This document shows positions 41,623-46,023 of a DNA stretch of 64,000 bases, piece by piece. The notes beneath the pieces are model-generated. The model had not been told where the DNA came from. It made no database searches and saw only the letters and a list, made by a program, of their open reading frames with translations. This stretch comes from Bacteroidetes bacterium 37-13 (GTDB lineage: Bacteria; Bacteroidota; Bacteroidia; Chitinophagales; LD1). The stretch's first letter is position 1, and each line of letters begins with the position of its first letter. The stretch spans positions 78,428-142,427 of the forward strand of contig MKTC01000031.1 in assembly GCA_001897535.1 (NCBI GenBank), written 5' to 3'. The translations under genes were made by a program, and so were the position numbers.

Positions 41623-44481
41623 CTACCGCTTCACCATGCGCTTGGTATCAATTACATTGCCATCGGCAATAAGCGTGTAGCTGTAAACACCGCTGCTTAA
41701 ATCTTGTGCATATACGTTAATTGCTCCCTTGCCGCGTGTGGCTATTTCTGCGCGGTTTATTTCTCTGCCTTCGGCATTGTAAAATATAATGGCTGCGGTT
41801 TTTACTTCTTGCGGTAAATAGTAGCCAATTACTGTTTGCTCAGCAAAAGGATTTGGTGTGTTTTGGTTTAGGATAATGGTTTGCAGGTTTTTAAGTTGAA
41901 TATCTTGTTGAGGTACATTAGTTTCGTTATTTTGTTCCTTTTTAAATGCCGGAGCGTTGTTTGTGTTACATAAATTAGCTCGCTGCATACAATCTTCTAT
42001 ATATAAAATTCTATTCGCAAGTGCTGCTATTACTGAATCTTTGGACTCTAAGCGATTTTGCTGCTCTTGCATTGCCGCTACAATAATACCAAACAGCGCA
42101 TTATAGTTCACTCCTTTGTAATCTATGGCAGGATATATCACTTTTCCCGATGTGTCAATATATTCAGGTTTATGAATGCCGCTTACAAGTTCAGGCAAAA
42201 TTTGTTCTACATCTTGTGCTATAAATCCATATTGTTTTTTACCTGAAAACCGAATACCATATGTATTAGCAGTATCAAAAAAATAGGTTTTAGGCTGCAA
42301 TTGGTTGATAATGGATATTGGATTGGCAATGGTATCTATATTTCTTTTTAAAATTCGGTCGGAAGAATTGATAAGGTTGCCCGTTACCACCACATGTCCA
42401 TCAAAGAAACCTGCGTAAGTGTTGGCATAGTTGGTATCTGCATAACCATATACTGCATAGTTTGCTGCTCCGTTGGAGGCGTTGCCATATACTCCATAGT
42501 TGGCATCAGCATTGCTATCATCCACAGAGCCACGCACTCCATAATTATATGCGTTCTGTTCGGCAGTACCGAACACTCCTGTGCCGTAGGTTGCTATAGC
42601 AGCATTTAGGGCATGTGCAGAACTTCCATATATTCCGGCATTGCTCCCTCTCGCCTCTGTAATTATCCCCATTATACCATAAGATGTATTTCTTAATGGT
42701 AAGTGAGTGCCATTTGTAACACCTGCAATTGCAGCATGTCCATATACTGCAGGCATGGTATCGCTTTGCTCAACATACAGCCTTGCCGGAAATTGTAAGC
42801 CGCAATTAGATATATTTCCAATGTTTACGGAACTATTATCATTATTTCCTGCTCTAAAATTATATGTATTGCCATTCAACGGTATTTCAAAATCACTTGT
42901 AAGCGGTTTTGGCGTACTGCCGCAGTAGTTGCCGATGTTGGGAGCATTGTTAGCTTCCACATAAACCACATCGCCTTCGGCATCTACCGCCAAAACGCCA
43001 AGACCCGGGTTGGTGCGGGCAGGTGAGGCTGTGTTTAAGTCTGTAAAGCGAAGCCCGCTGCTGCCGCCACTATCGCTTACTGCTCCCCAAGAGTTTACCT
43101 CTAAAGTGGCGGTGGGGTTGGCGCTGCTGCCATAGTATTGATTTGCAATAGGGTCTCCGCCAATACCTGTGTAAATTTCTTCTTTTACGTTTAACCCGTT
43201 AATCGTAACATTGGGTGTCATTCGCAAGCCCTCCAAACCATTTTGCCCTTCTGCCGGAAGACCCAATCCGGGATTGCTTGTAGCTGTAAATAGTATTTTG
43301 AAATTGTCGGGACCCGATTGTCCGGGCTGATTATCGCCCCATGCCAGCACCGCATCTGCTCCATTGTTTGAGGTGTCTAAGCCCAGATATACATGATCGC
43401 TGCCTTGCGAAACAAACATGCCTACATCCATCCACGAGCGCCAACCGTCATTACTTGTGGAGTTGGCTACATCATAGCCCAAATGCAATAAACTCAAAGG
43501 GCGGGTTACGGGTGTTGCAGGATTGTGGCTGATGCCGATGCGGGTGAGGTTGTTTGCCAAGCCACCCGGATTAAAAGCCACTCCGTTATTTAAAGCGCCT
43601 GTGTGCATCATGCGGAGGCGCTCGCCATTATTGGAATACAAAGAAAGCCTGTCATTTTCTTTCTGTATTATCTGTGCTTCGGAGTTGCTCTCTGCATAGC
43701 CTATGTGCAAGCCGTCATTTTTGGTTTGTTCTGTAACCTTTTCGTTGGTAATTTGGAGATAAACCTGCTTATCTGAGGCTGTACTTAAGTGCAGCAGATT
43801 TTGCGGGCGCACATAATTAGGATGGTCGGCAGTTAAGCCAAAGGTGTTGCCAAAACCTATTTGCCCGAAAGGTGTAAAACGGGCAATGTTTACGCCATCT
43901 AAATCGCTTGGGTCGGTAAAATCGCTCGATACAGAACTTGCGCCCGGACCACCACCCAAAAAACGAAATACCAAATCATCGGGACCGAGTTCTCCGCCAC
44001 CGTCATCAGCCCAGGCGATGGTGGTTTCGGTAATATCTTCCTTTTCGCCCACTTGGCGCAATCCCATATACGATAAATCTTGGTTGCCTGTGAGCGTGAT
44101 GCCCGTTTGCATCCAGTTGCGGTAGCCGAGTTCATCAATTCCATTGCTTTTGCCGTTTAAATGTAGCAGACTAAAAGCTCCCGTATTGTATATTGGGTTA
44201 GAGGTGCTGTTGAAGCTGTTATCTGTTCCAAGCAGCAAGTAACCGCTGCGGCCGATATTTGTTCCTGGTGCTCCGTTGATGGCGTAGCTGATATTTTCGT
44301 TGAGTTTCATGCGGTTTGAGCCGTTGGTTTGGAAGCGAATGGGGAAATTTTGTCCTGTACCTAAAATATTGTTAGTGGTGGAAATCCCCGTATTGTTCCC
44401 TGCGGTATTCCAATCAGGCGTTTGCGCAAAAATACTTAAACTTACAAGTACTAATGCTAATGGTAAAAATATTTTCTTCAT
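41623..44481 (-). CDS. T9SS-exported protein with S74 self-cleaving chaperone domain
   Basis: 952 residues. Signal peptide 1-20. Residues about 102-205 and 328-430 are two related copies of one module (SLLHL, RNWM/RSWM, YMGL/YLGL, AWADD/AWGDN, GPDDL/GPDNF). Residues 575-700 hold YGV-x-G repeats as in phage tail-fibre shafts. Ser707-Asp708 and Lys712 (SDRILK) begin a Peptidase_S74 intramolecular chaperone (YGFIAQDVEQILPELV), which in phage spikes trims itself after trimerisation. A coiled coil (about 800-835) and a type A T9SS sorting domain (875-952, PNPFAEQTVIGYYL to the end) follow. Predicted to be a trimeric surface fibre; combining S74 with T9SS sorting raises the question of whether cleavage would release the fibre from its sorting tail. 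Confidence 0.88.
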   Translation of the reverse strand: MKKIFLPLALVLVSLSIFAQTPDWNTAGNNTGISTTNNILGTGQNFPIRFQTNGSNRMKLNENISYAINGAPGTNIGRSGYLLLGTDNSFNSTSNPIYNTGAFSLLHLNGKSNGIDELGYRNWMQTGITLTGNQDLSYMGLRQVGEKEDITETTIAWADDGGGELGPDDLVFRFLGGGPGASSVSSDFTDPSDLDGVNIARFTPFGQIGFGNTFGLTADHPNYVRPQNLLHLSTASDKQVYLQITNEKVTEQTKNDGLHIGYAESNSEAQIIQKENDRLSLYSNNGERLRMMHTGALNNGVAFNPGGLANNLTRIGISHNPATPVTRPLSLLHLGYDVANSTSNDGWRSWMDVGMFVSQGSDHVYLGLDTSNNGADAVLAWGDNQPGQSGPDNFKILFTATSNPGLGLPAEGQNGLEGLRMTPNVTINGLNVKEEIYTGIGGDPIANQYYGSSANPTATLEVNSWGAVSDSGGSSGLRFTDLNTASPARTNPGLGVLAVDAEGDVVYVEANNAPNIGNYCGSTPKPLTSDFEIPLNGNTYNFRAGNNDNSSVNIGNISNCGLQFPARLYVEQSDTMPAVYGHAAIAGVTNGTHLPLRNTSYGIMGIITEARGSNAGIYGSSAHALNAAIATYGTGVFGTAEQNAYNYGVRGSVDDSNADANYGVYGNASNGAANYAVYGYADTNYANTYAGFFDGHVVVTGNLINSSDRILKRNIDTIANPISIINQLQPKTYFFDTANTYGIRFSGKKQYGFIAQDVEQILPELVSGIHKPEYIDTSGKVIYPAIDYKGVNYNALFGIIVAAMQEQQNRLESKDSVIAALANRILYIEDCMQRANLCNTNNAPAFKKEQNNETNVPQQDIQLKNLQTIILNQNTPNPFAEQTVIGYYLPQEVKTAAIIFYNAEGREINRAEIATRGKGAINVYAQDLSSGVYSYTLIADGNVIDTKRMVKR

Positions 44482-44525: not shown

Positions 44526-45503
44526 TTATCGTAACAATGTGAATGAACTTTCTTTCTTGAAGGATATACGCTGAATTAGGTTATCGGGCAAAGGAATATC
44601 TGCATAAATATAATATGTATAAATACCTACAGGTTGTGGCTTGTCTTTGTAGTAGCCATCCCAACCAATAGTAGGATTATCGTGTATCAGTTGCCCCCAA
44701 CGATTGTAGACTCTAAATTCACGAACAGCTATTGTGCTATCGAAATACACAGGATAATAAAAGTCATTTATGCCATCTCCATTTGGACTAAACGAAGTTG
44801 GCATTGCTAACGGAGCAAAAAATTCGACCACAGAAACATCATCAATAAAATAGTATGCTTGCTCAGCAGCCCATTCTGCACCTCCACTTATTGGAATCCA
44901 ATCGGTATTTGCTTCGTCTGTAAAAACGCCTATGGTTATATACTGTTCGCCTCCTGTAGCACGAAATATACCACTTATCTGAATCCAGTCAATATCGTCA
45001 ATTATTGGATTGTTAGGTTTGCTTATTACTTGCGGTGAATACGGTAAGTGTTCTGTATTTAATACAGAGATTGCTGTTGTTGAAAAATATATGCCCATAT
45101 TATCACAAGAACCTCCACTACTATCGCCCATTGAAATAAAGAATGTTACTTTGTAGTTTTTATCAGCCTCTAATGGTTGTATTAACTTACACTGAATATA
45201 TTCACGATATAAAGCCTTACCAATGGCAATGCCTACATAAGCATTGCCTGTTCGAGCGTTTTGGTATCCTCCAATATTTTGAGGAATACCCCCATTAGAT
45301 AAATTAAAATAATCTGGAGTTGCAAGTGTTGGGGTTGTCCAATTTTGTGTTAGAGCAATATCAAAATCACCACATAATGATGATGGACAATTGGTAATGC
45401 TTTCAAACGAAGGGTTCGGCACAAGATTTACTTGTGCATGAACTAAGGAAGTATTTAACGAAGTGAGTAACATAAGGAGTAGTAATGCTTTTATACTTTT
45501 CAC
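44526..45503 (-). CDS. Secreted protein with T9SS type B (gliding-motility C-terminal) domain
   Basis: 325 residues if started at the GTG at 45503, which places a signal peptide (SIKALLLLMLLTSLNTSLVHAQ) at the N-terminus. The open frame reaches 45827, but that extension overlaps the divergent XRE gene and its promoter. The N-terminal domain (NLVPNPSFESITNCP, then YIFIDDVSV-like YYFIDDVSVVEFF) is a carbohydrate-binding-like jelly roll. The C-terminal 85 residues (SFSPNGDGINDFYY, FRVYNRWGQLI, GWDGYYKDKPQPVGIYTY) are a CHU_C / gliding-motility-associated sorting domain that directs T9SS export. Function unknown; possibly glycan binding. Confidence 0.85.
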   Translation of the reverse strand: MKSIKALLLLMLLTSLNTSLVHAQVNLVPNPSFESITNCPSSLCGDFDIALTQNWTTPTLATPDYFNLSNGGIPQNIGGYQNARTGNAYVGIAIGKALYREYIQCKLIQPLEADKNYKVTFFISMGDSSGGSCDNMGIYFSTTAISVLNTEHLPYSPQVISKPNNPIIDDIDWIQISGIFRATGGEQYITIGVFTDEANTDWIPISGGAEWAAEQAYYFIDDVSVVEFFAPLAMPTSFSPNGDGINDFYYPVYFDSTIAVREFRVYNRWGQLIHDNPTIGWDGYYKDKPQPVGIYTYYIYADIPLPDNLIQRISFKKESSFTLLR

Positions 45504-45638
45504 AATCTTAATTTTAGTTAGGAACGAATGTAAAAAGCCGTAATAGAGTTTTGTGGCTTTACAAATATGTTGCACATACAAACACAAATTCAAGCAAAAT
45601 GAAAACATAAATAAGATGTATTTTGTATTAAAAATGAT

Positions 45639-45646
45639 TATTTTTG
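45639..45646 (+). promoter_or_regulatory. -7 promoter box of the XRE gene
   Basis: TATTTTTG is an exact TAnnTTTG match, 17 bp before the ATG at 45664, implying a short leader. No clear -33 box. Confidence 0.45.
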
Positions 45647-45663
45647 CATAGTAAAAATAGATT

Positions 45664-46023
45664 ATGGAAGATAAACTACAAAAAATATTAGACAAAGTAA
45701 AAGAGGAACGCATCTTAAAACGAGTAGGACAAAAAGAGATTGCAGCATTTATGGATATTGATGTCCGTACATATAACCAAATTGAAAACGGTAAATCAAA
45801 CTTATCATTACAGCAACTGTTAAGCATTGCCGCATTTTTTAAAAGAGATATTAGCTATTTCATTTCATCAGACCAAAGTAATCATATTGAAAGTTCTCCT
45901 AACTCAGGTGTATTTTATGATACTAGTTCCCAAAATAATTATAGCAGCGAAGCAATTGCTGCCTACAAGTTGCTCGTAAAAAACCTACAAGAAGAAGTTA
46001 AACGGCTTAATTCGCAAGTTTAA
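45664..46023 (+). CDS. XRE-family helix-turn-helix regulator
   Basis: 119 residues. The N-terminal HTH is KRVGQKEIAAFMDIDVRTYNQIENGKSNLS (residues about 19-50), the standard Cro/C1 fold. A linker rich in Ser and Asn follows and then a C-terminal coiled coil (YKLLVKNLQEEVKRLNSQV) that probably dimerises. This layout is common for small Bacteroidota regulators. It diverges from the T9SS type B cargo gene and lies next to a gene relic, so local control of the surface genes is possible but unproven. Confidence 0.88.
   Translation: MEDKLQKILDKVKEERILKRVGQKEIAAFMDIDVRTYNQIENGKSNLSLQQLLSIAAFFKRDISYFISSDQSNHIESSPNSGVFYDTSSQNNYSSEAIAAYKLLVKNLQEEVKRLNSQV

Follow-up and report, generated by a model that had tools for sequence, protein, structure and literature searches.

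Among the described systems closest to the protein analyzed here are the MAT fibres of Bdellovibrio, which are non-phage bacterial fibres with an S74 domain of the SDxxxK type. For one of them, Bd3182, self-cleavage at the Ser of this motif has been demonstrated and is abolished in the S782A mutant (PMC10769870), and by this precedent a bacterial S74 fibre can cut itself. As reported for the family, a conserved β-rich domain of ~130 amino acids follows the signal peptide, and 13 MATs terminate in S74 (PMC10769870). S74 chaperones also fold phage tailspikes and tail fibres (endoNF, 3gw6; 6f45), and S74 proteins are reported in eCIS operons, which are phage-tail-derived but lie in non-phage bacterial loci (PMC8213781). 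In MyRF (MYRF), which is tied to the ER membrane, the cut made by the corresponding ICA domain (7dc3) releases the N-terminal part from the membrane anchor as a homo-trimer (PMC6117317). The MyRF reaction is abolished by S587A and by K592A (the equivalents in endoNF are S911 and K916), is supported by Y615 and Y617, and gains new, extra cut sites in R590A (PMC8326128). On the side of secretion, ordinary cargo of the type IX secretion system (T9SS) has its C-terminal tail removed by PorU (PMC4804311), and type A cargo has been described as anchored at the surface via anionic LPS (PMC9143113).

The gene P0001 lies in a window of 64,000 nt from Bacteroidetes bacterium 37-13 (contig MKTC01000031.1, positions 78,428-142,427, forward strand) and combines features of all these systems. 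In P0001, unlike in those 13 MATs, S74 is followed by a linker and then by a type A sorting domain of the T9SS, so that a cut at the start of S74 would also remove the export signal. With the phage chaperones it shares the dyad, the predicted fold, the similarity of the upstream region to fibres and a sequence match to 6f45, but it differs from them by its secretion tail and by what looks like a signal peptide, and no phage genes were found among five neighbours scanned. MyRF provides the best Foldseek match and the same Ser-Lys dyad, with the difference that the analogue of the membrane anchor in P0001 would be the sorting tail. In contrast to the eCIS proteins, P0001 appears to be a stand-alone secreted protein. 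Finally, it resembles type A cargo (TIGR04183) in the sequence of its tail, possibly in the predicted fold of that tail, and in being encoded together with PorU and SprA, and differs from it by a second, built-in predicted cutter in front of the tail. The parts are known, and the recurrent order of fibre, self-cutter and T9SS tail is undescribed in the literature searched. The initial annotation knew of no detailed description of the combination; our full-text searches, with most subscription papers outside their scope, returned no description of this layout, and the main text of a T9SS review (PMC11205867) has no mention of tail fiber, S74, endosialidase or trimer. We propose, with a probability of roughly 0.55, that P0001 is a chromosomal, tail-fibre-like secreted protein that would be exported by the T9SS, trimerize through S74 and then cut itself between Ser706 and Ser707, freeing the fibre.

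Domain anatomy and predicted fold

The features of P0001 and of its upstream neighbour are collected in Table 1. The initial annotation had read Ser707, Asp708 and Lys712 as the start of an S74 domain that is preceded by YGV repeats and followed by a terminal T9SS domain, and profile searches bore out this anatomy with both domains over their cut-offs. PF13884 (Peptidase_S74) matched residues 707-766 with 50.2 bits (cut-off 22, E 3.3e-13), its first columns holding the three named residues, and TIGR04183 of NCBIfam, the T9SS type A sorting domain, matched residues 875-951 with 30.1 bits (cut-off 23, E 3.5e-7). Its Pfam counterpart, PF18962, scored 22.5 bits on the tail, under the cut-off of 27. 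The repeats immediately upstream of S74 read YGVRG, YGVYG and YAVYG, and residues 541-822 are similar to a PHROGs tail-fibre family (best E 5e-20). The N-terminus, MKKIFLPLALVLVSLSIFAQ-TPDW, looks like a signal peptide when read by eye. The passenger that follows gave zero Pfam matches up to E 1, and its model, built from a 5-row alignment, has a pLDDT of 31.6.

Table 1. Features of P0001 and its upstream neighbour, in positions of the window
Feature	Position	Strand	Basis
Whole gene P0001, S74 fibre protein with T9SS type A tail, 952 aa	41623..44481	(-)	ORF list
Sec signal peptide (probable), residues 1-20	44422..44481	(-)	Read by eye
N-terminal passenger, ~residues 21-498	42988..44421	(-)	Pfam, GC3
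Tail-fibre-like shaft with YGV repeats, ~residues 541-706	42364..42861	(-)	Sequence, PHROGs
Ser707, predicted nucleophile; predicted cut Ser706/Ser707	42361..42363	(-)	Pfam, alignments, MyRF S587 equivalence
Lys712, predicted general base of Ser-Lys dyad	42346..42348	(-)	Pfam, alignments, MyRF K592 equivalence
S74 / ICA domain with long C-terminal helix, residues 707-834	41980..42363	(-)	Pfam 707-766, model
Linker, residues 835-874, partly low-confidence in model	41860..41979	(-)	AlphaFold2
T9SS type A sorting domain, residues 875-951	41629..41859	(-)	TIGR04183, model
Upstream neighbour with T9SS type B (CHU_C) tail, 44 bp away	44526..45827	(-)	ORF list (start codon uncertain), domain profiles

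We modeled residues 596-952 with AlphaFold2 from alignment A3, which consists of 48 of 56 listed related rows together with P0001. Confidence is high over S74 and the sorting domain (blocks mostly 85-98) and low over the shaft and some of the linker. The three top Foldseek matches were MyRF ICA chains (7dc3, E 3e-6 to 1e-5), followed by endoNF chaperone chains (3gw6, E 3e-4 and above); 7dc3_B superimposed with a Z score of 10.3 and 2.3 Å over 133 residues, and the predicted monomer contains the ICA fold with its long C-terminal helix. By sequence, only two solved relatives were found up to E 1, the phage long tail fibre 6f45 (E 3e-5) and MyRF 7dc3 (E 0.15). Among the matches of the tail model were the C-terminal domains of PorU from P. 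gingivalis (Z 10.2) and of mirolase from T. forsythia (Z 9.5). Unrelated immunoglobulin-like domains scored just as high in many cases, and the identity of the tail therefore rests on the sequence profile. Taken together, the S74 and T9SS tail matches are far beyond chance, and both domains are confidently modeled.

The putative active site agrees with the known S74 / ICA enzymes in its spacing, with Ser at the start of the domain and Lys at +5. Counted along the alignment, Ser707 and Lys712 correspond to S587 and K592 of MyRF, Tyr733 to Y615, and Phe735 to Y617; the Y615 equivalent is Tyr or Phe in 64/64 of the bacterial tailed domains described below. At position +3, where MyRF has R590, P0001 has Ile710, and the Arg is also absent from 29/64 of these domains. 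We asked whether loss of this Arg marks the tailed S74 domains and set the idea aside: the Arg is present in 35/64 tailed and 50/74 untailed bacterial domains (p 0.16), and the difference from viral domains (53/61, p 8e-5) comes down to only 2 independent pairs on well-supported branches, too few to conclude from.

Conservation of the dyad and recurrence of the layout

In an alignment of 31 proteins with S74 and tail (A1), PF13884 matched all 31 and TIGR04183 matched 30, and both Ser707 and Lys712 fell among the only 10 invariant columns (31/31). We then compared a wider set, seeded by P0001, A2 and PF13884, and hence biased towards recognizable S74 domains; to lessen this bias, it was defined by a profile that covers only what follows the motif. 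S74 matches that started past model position 25 or scored ≤15 bits were dropped, as were exact duplicates and, among bacterial ORFs without a tail, those with an open 3' end. Tails were called with a custom profile, with which the curated TIGR04183 agreed in 30/31 rows of A1. The resulting 64 tailed rows come from 60 proteins, with four proteins contributing two domains each. Both dyad residues are present in 63 of the 64 tailed domains, the remaining one being masked, in 70/74 untailed domains, with truncated fragments accounting for two of the four exceptions, and in 61/61 viral domains, whose rows include near-copies. Among 117 columns of the tailed group, with a mean identity of 0.42, the three most conserved are Lys712 (64/64), Gly752 (64/64) and Ser707 (63/64).

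This conservation points to retained catalysis rather than to folding alone. The MyRF domain was crystallized with Ala at the Ser position (S587A, 7dc3; PMC8326128), which means that its fold can do without this residue, and for this reason we consider that self-cleavage is probably retained in the tailed proteins. Two features temper the argument. First, the PF13884 profile begins at the dyad motif, which weakens the argument from conservation but does not remove it; a structural role of the residues or the search method might explain part of the signal. Second, the dyad is kept equally well in domains that lack a tail. Catalysis would therefore be a conserved property of S74 domains as a whole that has persisted despite the tail, rather than one specific to tailed proteins.

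The same data bear on the possibility that S74 serves only as a trimerization and folding module, with no cut, the tail being taken off by PorU and the fibre either remaining at the cell surface or being secreted, uncut in both cases. A type A tail together with PorU is the ordinary export route, and no second cut is needed for it. The Ile710 in place of the supporting Arg fits such a protein, as does L184, on a contig from a viral collection, which has an S74-like domain and a T9SS tail but has lost the SDxxxK dyad; the layout can therefore exist without a Ser-Lys cut, and L184 offers a natural non-cutting control. It is difficult to reconcile a purely structural S74 with Ser and Lys being two of the three most conserved residues of the tailed group, in a fold that does not depend on the Ser, and we regard this explanation as unlikely, at something over one chance in five.

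The initial annotation had asked for a search for the domain pair across Bacteroidota, and the pair was indeed found. In an even sample of the phylum, S74 occurred in 39/148 genomes (75 matches), and among the 73 matches examined, 15 genes in 7/148 genomes carried an in-frame tail, nine of them in a single genome (G182); one further gene, in G058, is split by a frame break. Among 59 relatives, at least 32 matches in 22 genomes span from residue 712 or before to residue 940 or beyond. Two other scans covered 80 of 268 relatives and 80 of 115. The spacing of the two matches is variable, with 11-73 residues between S74 and tail (median 29, 67 proteins). Tandem forms exist as well: L007, L008 and L009 have two S74 domains followed by a tail, with both dyads intact, and L125 has the same arrangement with its first S74 partly masked, including the dyad. 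The layout is thus not unique to P0001, an idea we discarded given its recurrence in relatives, across the phylum and in tandem. Nor did a single origin of the join find support: 21 changes of the tail label, by joins or losses, were counted on a poorly resolved 150-row tree, and its well-supported branches force at least two. The genome of P0001 encodes four S74 proteins, of which only P0001 is tailed; the other three (L002, L003 and L004) have intact dyads.

Proposed order of export, cleavage and release

The genome encodes SprA (2446 bits) and PorU (1257.9 bits), each scoring above its cut-off. Of 231 candidate type A tails in the genome, 150 were scored and at least 125 exceeded the cut-off. 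Export by the T9SS is therefore likely. We infer the following course for P0001. The signal peptide would take the protein across the inner membrane, and the C-terminal type A domain would direct it through the T9SS (SprA, PorU). S74 would drive trimer formation and folding of the fibre, whereupon the Ser707-Lys712 dyad would cut the Ser706-Ser707 bond and part the fibre from S74, the linker and the sorting tail. The cut would follow passage across the outer membrane or be held back until then, and whatever the fate of the C-terminal piece at PorU, the fibre would no longer share it.

The timing is suggested by the position of the predicted cut. Cleavage between 706 and 707 would take the export signal off the fibre. 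A fibre destined for the outside would thus have to be cut after export; a cut in the periplasm would leave it stranded. In the tandem relatives, most of the chain would be left behind by a cut that preceded export, which favours export, then trimerization and cleavage, then release. These considerations suggest that the fibre is cut from its export tag after leaving the cell. The initial annotation had linked export, trimerization and release through a cut at Ser707; the anatomy, the catalytic residues and the near-invariant dyad favour its cut of the fibre from the tail, and the order of the steps that it assumed is one we would draw from the arguments above.

Cleavage might also occur without release, if the fibre and the S74 trimer stay non-covalently joined and the PorU-anchored S74 acts as a socket that displays the fibre. 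The endoNF chaperone separates. The mature tip of Bd3182 was crystallized without its chaperone (PMC10769870), which argues against such retention; anchoring of type A cargo through anionic LPS (PMC9143113) would fit it, and the residues between S74 and tail would be enough for an anchored S74. We consider a socket improbable, at odds of about one in seven, and prefer release of the fibre. That trimerization and cleavage take place in the periplasm, the tail exporting only spent S74 and the fibre remaining periplasmic or getting to the surface by a different route, is very improbable: the untailed S74 proteins of the same genome apparently manage without a tail, but an export signal that served just to remove a by-product would be hard to explain in 15/73 S74 genes.

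If self-release after export is correct, a folding-and-cutting module known from phages would serve as a quality gate for T9SS cargo, linking oligomerization to release. It would also raise the testable questions of whether the T9SS passes such cargo as monomers or as trimers and where the cut is made, for which the many relatives of the same architecture, among them the tandem forms and the dyad-less one, are natural replicates. More tentatively, and with the odds about two to one against, these proteins could form a self-releasing class of T9SS cargo, in which a trimer-gated protease between passenger and sorting tail frees the correctly folded fibre trimer outside the cell independently of PorU, and in which the tandem form would yield two fibres per polyprotein.

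The locus and a possibly exchanged passenger

The gene upstream of P0001 encodes a protein with a type B tail (Table 1). A homologue lies upstream in four of the seven other loci with the same passenger (L105, L109, L126 and L017), or 5/8 including the window, and one of the remaining three loci, L110, has only 538 bases upstream. All 60 genomes searched had homologues, many of them matching by the type B tail only. The neighbour may belong to the same system as the S74 fibre gene. The coordinates suggest a type B homologue upstream at G006:C9 and G038:C469 too.

We also considered a prophage origin of the locus and found no support for it, with no phage structural genes among the five neighbours scanned. 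With PHROGs, four of these five had no match up to E 0.01 and the fifth had a weak match to an HTH (E 0.0037), and PADLOC gave no match for the two proteins scanned.

The passenger differs from the rest of the gene in its codon usage. GC3 is 0.47-0.51 over the first 500 codons (42988-44481) and 0.26-0.37 thereafter. For comparison, 155 blocks from the other window ORFs give a background of 0.305 (sd 0.051), with one block at 0.46. In L105, GC3 of the same passenger is 0.20-0.29, so the protein sequence does not dictate the high value. In the closest homologue, L264, GC3 is 0.27 to 0.46 in the first five blocks and 0.18 to 0.26 in the rest. These values suggest a mosaic gene, perhaps formed when the passenger was exchanged onto a resident module of shaft, S74 and tail. 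A protein of the same type, with an in-frame stop in the passenger, is found on the L109 contig; this contig is labelled Candidatus Competibacteraceae and is probably misbinned.
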